A stretch of 64,000 bases of DNA from Flavobacterium praedii (GTDB taxonomy: Bacteria > Bacteroidota > Bacteroidia > Flavobacteriales > Flavobacteriaceae): the NCBI RefSeq assembly GCF_026810365.1, contig NZ_CP113948.1, forward strand, positions 3,435,001 through 3,499,000, given 5' to 3'. The notes below the pieces were generated by a model, which was not told the DNA's origin, did not search any database, and saw nothing but the letters and a program-made list of their open reading frames with translations. This document shows positions 7,219 to 56,553 of the stretch, piece after piece. Made by a program: the position numbers and the translations under genes. Position 1 is the first letter of the stretch. Each line of letters begins with the position of its first letter.

Positions 7219-9117
7219 ATGAGCGACGCTTTAAAACACGAATGTGGGATAGCTTTAGTTAGACTTTTAAAACCTCTTGAATTCTATAAAGAAAAGTACG
7301 GCACTGCATTTTATGGTATCCAAAAAATGTATTTAATGATGGAGAAACAGCACAACCGTGGTCAAGATGGTGCTGGTTTTGCAAGTATAAAAATGGATGT
7401 AGAACCTGGTGAAAGATACATTAGTCGTGTACGATCCAATCATGCTCAGCCCATTCAAGATGTTTTTAAACAAATCAATGATCGTATAAATGAAGAAATG
7501 CTGGCTCATCCTGAATATGCAGATGATGTGCCAAAATTGAAGGCAAATATTCCATATATTGGAGAACTGTTCTTAGGCCACGTCCGTTATGGTACTTTTG
7601 GTAAAAACAGTATCGAAAGTGTTCATCCTTTTTTGCGTCAAAGCAATTGGATGCATCGAAATCTAATTTTGGCTGGAAATTTTAACATGACTAATGTTAA
7701 AGAGCTTTTTCAAAACCTTGTAGAATTAGGACAGCATCCCAAGGAAATGGCGGATACCGTTACAGTTATGGAAAAAATTGGTCATTTTTTGGACAAAGAA
7801 GTGATGCAATTGTACCAGGATTGTAAAACGGAGGGGCTGTCAAAAAGAGAAGCTTCGCCTGTTATTGCTGAACGATTGGATGTTGCCAAAATTTTAACCC
7901 GTTCTTCAAAAAATTTAGACGGAGGATATGCTATGGCTGGTCTTTTAGGGCATGGCGATGCGTTTGTGTTTAGAGATCCTGCAGGTATTCGACCAGCATA
8001 TTATTATCAAGATGATGAAATTGTAGTAGTAGCATCCGAACGCCCTGTGATTCAAACTGTTTTCAATGTTCCTTTTGATAAAGTTAAGGAAGTAGAACCA
8101 GGTAGCGCTTTGATTATCAAAAAAAACGGAGACGTTTCTATGAAAGAAATCCTTACTCCTACTGTAAAAAAAGCGTGTTCTTTTGAACGCATCTATTTTT
8201 CTAGAGGAAGTGATGCCGAAATTTATCAAGAAAGAAAAAAATTAGGAAAACTTATTTTGCCAGCCGTTTTAGAATCGATAGATAATGATACTGATAATAC
8301 CGTTTTCTCTTATATTCCAAATACAGCTGAAACTTCTTTTTACGGTTTAGTTGAAGCTGCTCAAGATTTTTTGAACCAAAGAAAGAAAAATTATATTCTT
8401 GAAAACAAGGAGGTACTGAATGCGGATTCTTTAGAAAAATTATTGTCTGTAAAAATCAGAACGGAAAAAGTAGCCATAAAAGATGCGAAATTAAGAACTT
8501 TTATCACCGAGGATAGTAGTAGAGATGATTTAGTGGCGCACGTCTATGATGTGACTTATGGAGTTATAAAGCCATCAGATAACCTTGTTATAATTGATGA
8601 TAGTATTGTAAGAGGAACTACTCTTAAAATGAGTATTATCAAAATGATGGATCGTTTGAATCCTAAACGAATTGTTATTGTTTCTTCTGCTCCTCAAATC
8701 CGTTTTCCAGATTGTTACGGAATTGATATGGCAAAACTAGAAGGACTGGTAGCTTTTAAAGCAGCTTTAGAATTATTAAGAGAGCGAAATTTGTATCACA
8801 TTGTAGACGAAGTATATGCAAAATGCAAAGCACAAGAGAACTACAATGATTCTGATGTTGTAAATTATGTTACCGCTATATACGAACCTTTTTCAGCTCA
8901 AGAAGTTTCGGATAAAATAGCTGAAATGCTTAGTTCTCCAGAAATTAAAGCAGAAGTGAAAATTATATTCCAAACGGTAGAGGATTTACATATTGCATGT
9001 CCAAAAAATCTTGGCGATTGGTATTTTACTGGAAATTATCCAACACCAGGAGGGAATCGTGTAGTAAATAGAGCTTTCATGAATTTCTATGAAGGCAAAG
9101 ACGCAAGAGCATATTAA
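7219..9117 (+). CDS. PurF-like amidophosphoribosyltransferase, long form
   Basis: 632 residues, longer than typical PurF (about 470-510). N-terminal class II glutamine amidotransferase domain: MSDALKHECGIALVRL, with the expected nucleophile Cys9 preceded by an eight-residue leader that would have to be removed. RYGTFGKNSIESVHP and the NFNMTN segment also fit this domain. The C-terminal phosphoribosyltransferase domain has the PRPP loop LVIIDDSIVRGTTLKMS. The canonical reaction is PRPP + glutamine to phosphoribosylamine, the first step of purine synthesis. Extra length lies between the domains (around 300-440) and at the C-terminus (GDWYFTGNYPTPGGNR). Flavobacteria commonly carry such a long form beside a standard purF, so this may be a paralogue with altered regulation. 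Confidence 0.88.
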   Translation: MSDALKHECGIALVRLLKPLEFYKEKYGTAFYGIQKMYLMMEKQHNRGQDGAGFASIKMDVEPGERYISRVRSNHAQPIQDVFKQINDRINEEMLAHPEYADDVPKLKANIPYIGELFLGHVRYGTFGKNSIESVHPFLRQSNWMHRNLILAGNFNMTNVKELFQNLVELGQHPKEMADTVTVMEKIGHFLDKEVMQLYQDCKTEGLSKREASPVIAERLDVAKILTRSSKNLDGGYAMAGLLGHGDAFVFRDPAGIRPAYYYQDDEIVVVASERPVIQTVFNVPFDKVKEVEPGSALIIKKNGDVSMKEILTPTVKKACSFERIYFSRGSDAEIYQERKKLGKLILPAVLESIDNDTDNTVFSYIPNTAETSFYGLVEAAQDFLNQRKKNYILENKEVLNADSLEKLLSVKIRTEKVAIKDAKLRTFITEDSSRDDLVAHVYDVTYGVIKPSDNLVIIDDSIVRGTTLKMSIIKMMDRLNPKRIVIVSSAPQIRFPDCYGIDMAKLEGLVAFKAALELLRERNLYHIVDEVYAKCKAQENYNDSDVVNYVTAIYEPFSAQEVSDKIAEMLSSPEIKAEVKIIFQTVEDLHIACPKNLGDWYFTGNYPTPGGNRVVNRAFMNFYEGKDARAY

Positions 9118-9196
9118 TTAATTTTCCCGATAATCGATTATATGGGTACTTAGTCGGATTTATTTTTTAAATTTTATTTATAAAAGTACATTTGTT

Positions 9197-9270
9197 CTAC
9201 CATGATTTAGTAGGTTAAGTTTATGGTAGATTTGGGGCAAAAAGGGTGAAAGTAAAATTTCACCTTTTTT
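9197..9270 (+). ncRNA. Candidate sRNA copy 1
   Basis: -10 TACATTTG at 9187-9194. 5' stem CTACCAT (9197-9203) / ATGGTAG (9223-9229) closes a 19-nt loop containing AGTAGGTTAAGTTT. The linker ATTTGGGGCAAAAA follows, then terminator GGTGAAA (9245-9251) / TTTCACC (9258-9264) and six T. This copy is the most diverged: its loop is one base shorter than the others and its terminator loop is gtaaaa instead of gtaaca. Confidence 0.75.
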
Positions 9271-9424
9271 ATTGGAATAAAGTCAGGGTTTAGTTTTTTT
9301 GTTTCAATTTTCAGAAACTAAATTTTTTTAATTGTGCTGAAAATCAATATTTTAGTAGGTTATCGACTATTTGAGGAATTTATCGACTATATTTTTATTC
9401 ATAAACTTATCATAGTATATTTGA

Positions 9425-9499
9425 CTACCATGATTTTAGTAGGTTAAGTTTATGGTAGATTTGGGGCAAAAAGGGTGAAAGTAACATTTCACCTTTTTT
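9425..9499 (+). ncRNA. Candidate sRNA copy 2
   Basis: -10 TATATTTG at 9416-9423. 5' stem CTACCAT (9425-9431) / ATGGTAG (9452-9458), terminator stem 9474-9480 / 9487-9493 with T-run to 9499. Its upstream box contains an exact direct repeat ATCGACTAT at 9362-9370 and 9382-9390, which shows the 20-bp spacing best. Confidence 0.78.
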
Positions 9500-9665
9500 A
9501 TTGGACAATAGTCAAGATTTTAATGTTCAATAAAATTTTTAACCATAAAATAATTGCTAAATACACTATTAAAAGTATTGAAAATCAATTAGATAGCAAA
9601 TAAACGAGTATTTAGGATGTTCATCGAATATATTTCTATTAGCAGTAATACTATCGTATATTTGA

Positions 9666-9740
9666 CCACCATGATTTTAGTAGGTTAAGTTTATGGTAGA
9701 TTTGGGGCAAAAAGGGTGAAAGTAACATTTCACCTTTTTT
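9666..9740 (+). ncRNA. Candidate sRNA copy 3
   Basis: -10 TATATTTG at 9657-9664. 5' stem ACCAT (9668-9672) / ATGGT (9693-9697), one mismatch at the outer pair. Terminator stem 9715-9721 / 9728-9734 with T-run to 9740. Linker identical to the other copies. Confidence 0.78.
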
Positions 9741-9908
9741 ATTGGAATATAGTCACCTTTTAAATTCTATATGTTTGGCATCAATACCTATTAATTACAA
9801 TAATAAGTGCTATAATGAATCTGTAAATCAGTTAATTATCAATTAAACGAGTATTTAGGATGTTCATCGAAAATAATTTTATAACAGTATATTTCAAATT
9901 ATATTTGA

Positions 9909-9984
9909 CTATCATAATTTTTAGTAGGTTAAGTTTATGGTAGATTTGGGGCAAAAAGGGTGAAAGTAACATTTCACCTTTTTT
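9909..9984 (+). ncRNA. Candidate sRNA copy 4
   Basis: -10 TATATTTG at 9900-9907. 5' stem CTATCAT (9909-9915) / ATGGTAG (9937-9943): the C-to-T change keeps pairing as a U-G wobble, which supports a folded RNA. Terminator stem 9959-9965 / 9972-9978 with T-run to 9984. Confidence 0.78.
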
Positions 9985-10153
9985 ATTGGAATATAATCAA
10001 GATTTTAGTTCTATAAAATATTTTTTGAATTCTATAATTAAGAATATAATAACAAGTCAAATACTCTGAAAATCAATTATTTAGCATATAAACGAGTATT
10101 TAGGATGTTCATCGAAAATATTTTAAAATAAAGAATTACCATCGTACATTTGA

Positions 10154-10229
10154 GTACCATAATTTTTAGTAGGTTAAGTTTATGGTAGATTTGGGGCAAA
10201 AAGGGTGAAAGTAACATTTCACCTTTTTT
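10154..10229 (+). ncRNA. Candidate sRNA copy 5
   Basis: -10 TACATTTG at 10145-10152. 5' stem TACCAT (10155-10160) / ATGGTA (10182-10187). Terminator stem 10204-10210 / 10217-10223 with T-run to 10229. Core downstream of the loop identical to copies 2-4. Confidence 0.78.
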
Positions 10230-10307
10230 ATTGGAATAAAGTCAAAGCCCCATAACCCTTAAAGGAGGAATAAAAAGCAATTATAAGAACAAATTTTCGA
10301 GGATATT

Positions 10308-10363
10308 AAAAAAAAAGAGGTAAGTAAAAGATTTTTAAAATCCTTTTCTTACCTCTTTTTTTT
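10308..10363. terminator. Bidirectional terminator between the sRNA array and sod
   Basis: An A-run (10308-10316), stem GAGGTAAG (10317-10324) / CTTACCTC (10348-10355), then a T-run (10356-10363). Works as an intrinsic terminator on either strand: it ends sod on the minus strand and any read-through from the array on the plus strand. Confidence 0.85.
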
Positions 10364-10395: not shown

Positions 10396-11004
10396 TTATT
10401 TTTCTAAAGCAAAACGTCTAGCCACTTCAGTCCAGTTAATTACATTAAAAAATGCTTCAATATAATCCGGTCTTCTGTTTTGGTAATGCAAGTAATAAGC
10501 ATGTTCCCAAACGTCCATAGCAAGAATTGGAGTCCCTCCACATCCATTTTCTGGCATCAAGGGATTGTCTTGATTTGGAGTTCCGCAAACTTCAAGTTTA
10601 CCTCCTTTTTGTACACACAACCATGCCCATCCAGAACCAAATTGTGTTGCACCAGCCTTCGAAAATTTCGCTTTAAATTCTTCAAAAGTACCAAAAGAAC
10701 TTTCAATAGCGTCTAACAATTCACCAGTAGGCAAACCTCCACCATTTGGCGACATTACTGTCCAAAACAAATTGTGATTGTAAAATCCACCACCATTGTT
10801 ACGAACCGCTGCATTCGTTTTATCTAGGTTAATTAAAATGTTTTCAATCGTTTTTCCTTCCAAATCAGTTCCAGCAATAGCTGCATTCAAATTGGTGGTA
10901 TACGCATTGTGATGTTTTGTATAGTGAATTTCCATTGTACGAGCATCAATATGAGGTTCTAATGCGTCATACGCATAAGGTAATTGTGGTAATTCAAAAG
11001 CCAT
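10396..11004 (-). CDS. Superoxide dismutase (Fe/Mn family)
   Basis: 202 residues, full length. Converts superoxide to hydrogen peroxide and oxygen. Metal ligands: His in [20 protein letters not shown], the second His in the helix NHNLFWTVM, and Asp/His in [18 protein letters not shown]. The signature DVWEHAYY fits both metals; Fe, Mn or cambialistic use cannot be decided by eye. No signal peptide, so cytosolic. Monocistronic; a candidate -10 (TAATTTTG, minus strand) lies at 11047 to 11040. Confidence 0.96.
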
Positions 11005-11135: not shown

Positions 11136-11231
11136 AATTAGGAGCTATTTCCTGCTGTACACTATATCTTTTTATCTCGTCCAAAAAAAAGACGAGATAA
11201 AAAGGATGCCGTTCCCATCAGGGCTAGGGCA
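11136..11231. repeat. Flavobacterial palindromic interspersed repeat, copy A
   Basis: Left box GGAGCTATTTCCTGCTGTAC, then a hairpin TTTTTATCTCGTC / GACGAGATAAAAA (13 bp, loop of about 8), then right box GGATGCCGTTCCCATCAGGG. The boxes are almost identical to those of the copy at 38587-38692, but the hairpin stem sequence differs completely. Sits between the divergent sod and AddA-like genes. Confidence 0.85.
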
Positions 11232-38552: not shown

Positions 38553-38928
38553 TTATATTTACTGTAATCGAAATATTTTGCCAATTATTAGGAGCTATTT
38601 CCTGCTGTACACTATATCTTTTTATGAGGTGAAGAAAAATCACCTCATAAAAAGGATGCCGTTTCCATCAGGGCTAGGGCTTTACGGTAAAACACCTATT
38701 TTGAAAACCAATCAGCCACAGACGAAATACTCACACTTTTTTCTTGTAAATTCGCTACAGCTACATTAGGAGTTTTGATACAATTACTAAACGATCCTAA
38801 AAATCTTTAAGGGTCTTTCTGAATACTTCGAGAATCTTTGTGAAATTATTAAACAAAAACGTTTGTCCAACATTTACGGGTCATTTCTCATGCTAATTCA
38901 TTAAATTTGCAACCAAAATCGATCTTCA
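38553..38928. other. Intergenic region holding repeat copy C and a queD -10
   Basis: 376 bp. Besides the repeat, TAAATTTG at 38902-38909 fits the -10 consensus 20 bp before queD. The stretch at 38810-38850 has CTTTGTG-like words as at 36030. No gene recognised. Confidence 0.55.
38587..38692. repeat. Flavobacterial palindromic interspersed repeat, copy C
   Basis: Same left box (GGAGCTATTTCCTGCTGTAC) and right box (GGATGCCGTTTCCATCAGGG) as copy A at 11136-11231, but a different perfect stem: TTTTTATGAGGTGA / TCACCTCATAAAAA (14 bp). Lies between the Ig-like lipoprotein gene and queD. Confidence 0.87.
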
Positions 38929-56504: not shown

Positions 56505-56553
56505 CACCCTTAATTAATCGAGGTCGAGTACCTCAAAATTTAATCATAAGATT

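Follow-up and report, generated by a model that had tools for sequence, protein, structure and literature searches.

The interval between a purF-like gene and sodA in Flavobacterium praedii is occupied by five units of a small RNA (positions 9131-10240 of the window, the whole 64,000-nucleotide stretch of DNA that was analysed). The best explanation of this array, and one that we regard as likely, is a trans-acting multicopy sRNA that pairs with the leaders of mRNAs for CAP-domain lipoproteins and operates with sponge RNAs under one shared regulator. By pairing just before the start codon, the sRNA would probably silence these surface-lipoprotein mRNAs. The locus has the sequence features of a multicopy trans-acting sRNA, namely near-identical cores, a promoter for each copy, intrinsic terminators and complementarity to mRNA leaders encoded elsewhere.

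Five sRNA units in one conserved interval

The gene upstream of the array, which we take to be purF, encodes class II glutamine amidotransferase domains in Pfam, and the Fe/Mn superoxide dismutase gene sodA lies downstream in convergent orientation; both are conserved neighbours (Table 1). The earlier note had described the layout of the array from the letters of the window, and this description proved accurate. Five tandem units are spaced by 229-245 bp, each with a pair of CGAnTAT-like direct repeats 20 bp apart, and the start of the distal half-site precedes the start of the -10 element by 52 bp in every unit. Each -10 matches TAnATTTG, as either TACATTTG or TATATTTG, and none of the five promoters was found on reading to have a TTG-type -35. 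The stem at the 5′ end is kept in copy 4 by a U-G pair, with copies 3 and 5 each lacking one of the two outer pairs, and the linker before the intrinsic terminator, ATTTGGGGCAAAAA, is identical in all five units. Between the last copy and sodA there is a long inverted repeat, which is probably the terminator of sodA.

Table 1. Features of the array and its surroundings, in window positions
Feature	Positions	Strand	Remarks
purF-like gene	7219..9117	+	conserved upstream neighbour
Unit 1 regulator box	9131..9161	+	half-sites CGATTAT at 9135 and CGGAT at 9155, 20 bp apart
Unit 1 -10 element	9187..9194	+	TACATTTG
Unit 1 sRNA	9196..9281	+	covariance model match; pairing core 9209-9243, terminator in 3′ part
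Unit 2 regulator box	9360..9390	+	two exact ATCGACTAT, at 9362 and 9382; distal CGAnTAT at 9364
Unit 2 -10 element	9416..9423	+	TATATTTG
Unit 2 sRNA	9424..9510	+	covariance model match; core 9438-9472
Unit 3 regulator box	9601..9631	+	distal CGAnTAT at 9605
Unit 3 -10 element	9657..9664	+	TATATTTG
Unit 3 sRNA	9665..9751	+	covariance model match; core 9679-9713
Unit 4 regulator box	9844..9874	+	distal CGAnTAT at 9848
Unit 4 -10 element	9900..9907	+	TATATTTG
Unit 4 sRNA	9908..9995	+	covariance model match; core 9923-9957
Unit 5 regulator box	10089..10119	+	distal CGAnTAT at 10093
Unit 5 -10 element	10145..10152	+	TACATTTG
Unit 5 sRNA	10153..10240	+	covariance model match; core 10168-10202
Inverted repeat	10309-10363		27-nt arms, 93% complementary
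sodA	10396..11004	-	conserved convergent downstream neighbour
Flavo-1 RNA (RF01705)	11144-11229	-	~75 bits
Flavo-1 RNA (RF01705)	38594-38679	-	~75 bits
S16-Flavobacteria ribosomal protein leader (RF03138)	56513-56544	+	barely above gathering score

The sRNA would be approximately 75-80 nt long and consists of a 5′ hairpin, the linker AGAUUUGGGGCAAAA and an intrinsic terminator. Folding z-scores of the five units lie between -3.2 and -4.7, with none or one of 200 shuffles equally stable. The F. praedii genome, a single contig of 4.17 Mb, was searched whole: a pattern made of the linker and the start of the terminator, with up to three mismatches, was found at the five array places only, and a covariance model built from the five units (R1) recovered all five at 106-110 bits. 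A second model without pairs, R2, was left out of searching. R1 also gave three weak places on the forward strand (25-31 bits), two of which, L042 and L040, look on reading like partial relatives, whereas L041 does not. L042 (1440-1600; G000:C1:4057606-4057741, with the R1 place at 4057666) has an sRNA-type box, a -10 and a core, lacks a terminator and carries AGGAGG ahead of the ATG of an 18-codon ORF; it may be a decayed copy or a sense mimic. At L040 (1550-1620; G000:C1:1207638-1207749) the sequence AAGTAGGTTTGGGGCGAA fuses the loop to the linker without the intervening strand, and a terminator-like hairpin follows.

For 149 matches (73 loci and the window) the covariation score was 0.222 compared to 0.101 in shuffles, none of 500 being as high, in an alignment that was fitted to R1 and leans towards its structure. 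Pairing in the terminator helix stands at 99.7%, and 10 of its 13 pairs have changed on both sides; from these compensatory changes we infer that the units are transcribed. No real covariation was observed for hairpin 1, where both sides change in one of nine pairs and in one sequence; as this hairpin is nearly invariant, the argument for it is sequence conservation, and it is neither proved nor refuted by covariation. RNAalifold returned no consensus pairs on a plain MAFFT alignment. The letters of the core hardly vary across the 149 matches, a conservation that is biased by the choice of the named loci on an exact core pattern, although their additional copies were not so chosen.

The family is widespread. 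R1 matched 121 of 150 genomes of the genus at E <= 0.001 (102 of the 124 good ones) and 194 of 249 genomes of the family at E <= 0.01, in 184 of 235 genera. From the named matches we read the family searched as Flavobacteriaceae, the genera among them being Flavobacterium, Winogradskyella, Algibacter, Xanthomarina, Psychroserpens, Lacinutrix, Gaetbulibacter and others. At the level of the order 27 of 196 genomes matched, one of the 27 lying outside the family (G568, E 9e-4). Matches number one to seven per genome and are not always clustered together. A scan of named GTDB contigs for the exact core gave at least 120 stretches, 80 of which were checked against the PurF-like protein and against SodA; one or both genes adjoin the RNA in 75 of these 80. 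A MAG titled Lentimicrobium (L108) has the RNA beside Flavobacterium-like purF and sodA, with 86% identity each, and is perhaps a mis-binned contig.

The earlier note had named as one case against it a mobile DNA repeat, spread over many unlinked loci without -10 elements. No such spread was seen. A mobile repeat is rejected because the pattern occurs at no place in the genome beyond these five and because the synteny of the locus is mostly preserved. The claim of a multicopy regulatory RNA is well supported by the terminator pairs, by this synteny and by the breadth of the family.

Complementarity to CAP lipoprotein leaders and candidate sponges

The leader of the CAP-domain lipoprotein genes, UUUGCCCCACAAUCUACUUUAAACUUAAACUACU...AUG, is the complement of the sRNA core AGUAGGUUAAGUUUAUGGUAGAUUUGGGGCAAA except for a bulge and a few mismatches. 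This complementarity extends over ~33 nt, beginning ~40 nt upstream of the AUG and stopping a few nucleotides short of it. Either the linker or the loop had been suggested as the pairing site; both, together with the strand between them, are complementary to a single leader site. Target prediction from the linker had likewise been proposed; it led by chance to one stretch with two sites (L286), and a simple linker seed was rejected as unenriched. Exact linker complements TTGCCCCAAA occurred at 90 distinct places in six genomes (G139 being represented by part of its loci only), and those near start codons divided into 7 sense and 7 antisense sites. The loop complement CTTAACCTACT was found, besides the sRNAs, at three places in the six genomes against 62 matches for the reversed control, a scarcity that may reflect either composition or avoidance.

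Two intergenic sites, L286 from the linker search and L314 from the loop search, were conspicuous by their duplex energy, and it was thus through the loop search and L314 that the CAP leaders were found. A 17-mer from L314, TTTGCCCCACAATCTAC, was searched in 299 genomes of the genus with up to two mismatches. Among the matches listed were 31 exact sites in 20 genomes, all of which were examined: 26 precede an ORF of 164-169 amino acids, with the ATG 39-43 nt from the start of the site, and the other five have no ORF. Every one of the 27 ORF products scanned, 26 from these sites and one from a near-match, contained the CAP domain PF00188. These 26 sites were selected by a linker-complementary pattern and are a biased set. 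For a less biased one, CAP genes were collected by protein homology alone from 16 chosen genomes, 14 of which gave a match; among the five non-genus or odd genomes, G398 and G312 gave none. The leader site was unequalled by any of 100 mononucleotide shuffles in 10 of 15 genus CAP genes, from 7 of 10 genus genomes, and the remaining five genes (L445, L447, L448, L449 and L450) lack it; for L445, one of the three CAP genes of F. praedii, 19 of 100 shuffles were as good. With five CAP leaders outside the genus, the shuffles as good per 100 numbered 0 (L453), 1 (L452), 3 (L454), 26 (L451) and 90 (L459). The claim was dropped there as too weak, only L453 beating all 100.

In F. praedii itself, the leader of the CAP gene adjoining pdxH, for pyridoxamine-phosphate oxidase (G000:C1:1250906-1251379), pairs with the sRNA at -38.0 kcal/mol and that of a second CAP gene (1228952-1229425) at -29.8 kcal/mol, with cofolding gains of -20.0 and -18.3 kcal/mol for the two leaders. 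No leader site was found for the third (973427-973903). The background, from 45,220 windows in 340 kb of the same genome, has a mean of -12.6 kcal/mol, a standard deviation of 3.5 and a minimum of -30.3, with two values at or below -29.8. Over 27 CAP leaders the energies range from -28.9 to -43.8 kcal/mol (mean -39.0), and shuffled cores reached -28.0 kcal/mol at the lowest against the same leaders (200 mononucleotide shuffles per leader). The target leaders also contain a hairpin around GCCCC that is conserved but weak (-2.15 kcal/mol) and shows no covariation. Outside the genus, at L323 (1480-1640; G423:C1:1961659), a core complement AATCTACTTAACCTACT immediately precedes the ATG of a small hydrophobic ORF of 40 aa, which is a possible second target.

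Sites of the same kind also occur in stretches that lack an ORF. Five genomes (G273, G293, G204, G234 and G139) have such a stretch (L426, L429, L437, L439 and L440) between pdxH and a gene for a nucleoside symporter, and in each it comprises a box, a -10 and a terminator together with one to three anti-core sites. The assignment of the neighbours follows Pfam for pdxH of G000 and the symporter of G139, and likeness for the others. The same pdxH-side interval has a CAP gene in other genomes (L411, L413, L414 and F. praedii), and a CAP gene with the site stands elsewhere (L427, L430, L398, L417) in four of the four genomes examined for it (G273, G293, G204 and G234). Six of seven sponge sites have the motif CTTAACC, a match to the sRNA loop, at the place where CTTAAAC stands in most of the mRNAs; three have the full CTTAACCTACT. 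We infer from these sequences that ORF-less RNAs are probably made and act as sponges. No sponge-like stretch was found in the F. praedii genome. In another genus, L286 (G338:C1 ~113383-113432) follows a gene pair that is presumably CoA-transferase-like; it has no ORF but carries a box, two or more anti-core sites and a terminator, and by its sequence it would be a comparable sponge-like RNA outside Flavobacterium.

Other readings of these data have to be weighed. The ORF-less stretches could be decayed CAP genes that have no sponge function, and their position beside pdxH, where the CAP gene stands in other genomes, is what one would then see. We nevertheless think this somewhat unlikely, as box, -10, one to three sites and terminator have all been kept at the same locus in five genomes, and the seven sponge sites pair slightly better on average (-37.1 to -44.7 kcal/mol, mean -41.8) than the CAP leaders at their mean of -39.0, with overlapping ranges. 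Pairing with the CAP leaders might also activate them, for example if it opened a leader hairpin that is inhibitory or shielded the mRNA. The conserved weak hairpin around GCCCC would suit such a role, and positive sRNA effects do occur in Flavobacterium, because deletion of Rfp18 is reported to lower two of its target mRNAs (Guerin et al. 2021, PMC9723704). But the pairing reaches to within a few nucleotides of the AUG, which is the usual repressing geometry, and the leader folds are weak at ~-6 to -11 kcal/mol compared to a duplex of -38 kcal/mol, so that activation appears to us unlikely. Finally, the core might code for a tiny peptide started by its conserved ATG, given that all five units read MVDLGQKG-stop in frame and that a sixth relative, L042, reads its longer ORF after AGGAGG. 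A peptide-coding core is hardly credible, and was rejected, because third codon positions are nearly unvarying in the 149 matches and the stops are not conserved, being absent in many relatives where the frame continues (GGGTGG). Moreover, the same core letters are complementary to the CAP leaders. Silencing of these leaders, with candidate sponges, is the preferred reading.

The shared box and a proposed circuit

Support for the earlier claim of a shared activator-type box came from half-site placement and a lag-20 period in 231 distinct sRNA promoters of the genus. Their autocorrelation peaks at lag 20 (0.54 versus 0.24-0.39 at other lags), as it does outside the genus (0.56), with other lags in both groups at 0.20-0.39. 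The half-site TTYRTC, with at most one mismatch, stands at both expected places in 152 of the 231, compared to 0-17 at shifted places; most of the 45 exceptions listed are box variants, as in the F. praedii clade, or belong to another promoter class. A half-site profile, derived from the same 231 promoters that it scored, gave a lag of 20 for 208 of them and placed the proximal half-site 37 bp upstream of the -10 for 180. In one clade a second promoter class was seen (second copies of L043, L048, L050, L051, L055, L056, L059 and L061), in which the same core follows TTTGCCTATCATCCCAATATAT in place of the box; since this upstream sequence is unrelated, it points to another control input.

Searched in its own genome, the box gave 10 exact matches: the five units, L042, L214 and L216, which sit inside long ORFs, and L215 and L217, upstream of protein genes with a -10-like element at +53 and +52. 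With one mismatch there were 67 matches against 46 for a reversed-pattern control, a modest excess. The genes at L215 and L217 (G000:C1 ~1525656 and ~2174910) are possible further members of the regulon; one codes for a secreted protein that is laminin-G-like and ends in a T9SS sorting tail, the other for a small protein without Pfam matches.

In the VirR/VR-RNA and AgrA/RNAIII systems, a LytTR response regulator bound to two spaced direct repeats drives a regulatory RNA; these RNAs are long and single-copy, unlike the array described here, and what is shared is the spaced direct repeats. Two reports on LytTR regulators describe an AlgR site CCGTTCGTC and direct repeats that lie 11-13 bp from each other beside the -35 region (PMC6193735, PMC4064291). 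A period of 20-22 bp for two imperfect repeats near -35 would be expected of LytTR control; the lag was 20 in both sRNA promoter groups and 21 in 31 of 43 target and sponge promoters, and the half-site TGCA(T/G)TTYRTCG was compared with CCGTTCGTC by eye. The likeness lies in the fit of the 11-13 bp gaps and the AlgR site to the 20-21 bp period and the GTTCGTC/GTTCATC half-sites; the first core position has T more often than G (144 T and 25 G in the distal half-site, 102 T and 68 G in the proximal), where LytTR/AlgR sites have G. The regulator of the box would most likely be a LytTR-type response regulator.

The promoters of the CAP and sponge genes carry the half-sites in another position. They lie 21 bp apart in 31 of 43 such promoters, and in 23-24 of the 43 their distances to the -10 are 38 and 17 bp; in five of the 43 no -10 was found. 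At the best target in F. praedii (L457) the second half-site is degenerate; there the repression geometry was not recovered by the profile. Comparison of the sRNA positions (-57/-37) with those of targets and sponges (-38/-17) shows that a half-site near -37 is common to all gene types, with the second half-site at -57 in the sRNA promoters and at -17, between the -35 and the -10, in the others.

These observations suggest how the parts might work together. One transcription factor would bind the 20/21-bp direct repeats of sRNA, target and sponge genes and, by the usual logic of promoter geometry, would activate from -57/-37 and repress from -38/-17. Pairing would begin between the exposed GGGGC linker and the GCCCC of the target, and the duplex would extend through the opened hairpin, such that translation initiation is blocked. 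With the factor on, the lipoprotein would be switched off twice over while the sponge falls, which amounts to a coherent feed-forward loop; with the factor off, the sponge would clear leftover sRNA. The copies of the sRNA would add dosage. We give even weight, and no more, to the full proposal of a previously undescribed circuit that would be widespread in Flavobacterium, made up of tandem sRNAs, leader sites of ~33 nt, sponges that arose by loss of the CAP ORF with the sites kept or duplicated, and one regulator whose box is shifted by one repeat about the half-site near -37, upstream for activation and downstream for repression. The second promoter class of the one clade would add a further input to that circuit.

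Relation to known RNAs and significance

The comparison with Rfam that the earlier note had called for, Flavo-1 included, was negative: no unit matched any of the 4227 models of Rfam 15 at gathering score, and the best match over a unit, HrrF, reached 23.0 bits where 77 are needed. Flavo-1 (RF01705) is also a flavobacterial RNA and matches none of the five units. Two Flavo-1 RNAs stand elsewhere in the window, one of them just beyond sodA, as does an S16-Flavobacteria leader (Table 1).

The parallels drawn previously with Listeria and Vibrio hold for function and for nothing beyond it. The Qrr sRNAs of Vibrio are redundant genes under one response regulator, with sigma-54/LuxO promoters, Hfq and other targets. 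LhrC of Listeria comprises several homologous copies under the two-component regulator LisR and acts on envelope and surface proteins (PMC4132741, PMC5880928); it differs from the sRNA described here in phylum, box and targets, and no sequence link is expected. A closer comparison is FopS of Bacteroides thetaiotaomicron, a family of sRNAs of ~65-70 nt by which the translation of mRNAs for surface proteins is blocked close to the start codon (PMC11697453). Both are thus multicopy paralogous sRNAs of Bacteroidota directed at surface-protein mRNAs near the start codon. FopS, however, is described there as having 14 copies at separate loci, a single-stranded 5′ seed, canonical sigma promoters and SusC-type targets, whereas the present sRNA is tandem and mostly syntenic, with a 5′ hairpin and linker, a regulator box, CAP lipoprotein targets and pairing over ~33 nt. 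The FopS layout of a single-stranded 5′ seed directly before the terminator was not seen, the units folding with a 5′ hairpin.

It is quite improbable, in our view, that the array family is Rfp18 of F. psychrophilum, or another Rfp RNA, in other species. Rfp18 does share its genus-wide conservation, strong structure and secreted or surface protein targets, such that both would be conserved Flavobacterium sRNAs acting on surface or secreted proteins; but the pairing of Rfp18 with mRNAs for metalloproteases and adhesins involves a third stem-loop (PMC9723704), while the unit here has two stem-loops and CAP lipoproteins as its conserved partner, and is set apart by that description. No F. psychrophilum title was among the matches listed (at least 120 core stretches). 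We accordingly treat the array as a family of its own. Among the papers listed for the openly licensed literature, none dealt with this locus, with a flavobacterial sponge or with an sRNA that acts on CAP lipoproteins, and Rfp18 was named in a single one.

To our knowledge, few trans-acting sRNA circuits have been worked out in Bacteroidota outside the gut Bacteroides, and the phylum is, so far as we are aware, said to lack Hfq. Blocking of surface-protein mRNAs at the start codon by multicopy sRNAs is already known in Bacteroidota from FopS (PMC11697453). We judge the sRNA family, which is absent from Rfam 15, to be probably new, and we consider the new aspects to be an sRNA array matched to its target, a candidate sponge that occupies the locus of the target itself and a single box used in two positions. 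As the target site is named, the sponge candidate given and the box defined, all of this is testable in one genus. If correct, the leader of a target mRNA would have become a dedicated antagonist of its own sRNA, and the system would provide a regulatory handle, absent from the literature searched, on the CAP-domain (SCP/PR-1-like) lipoproteins of flavobacteria.
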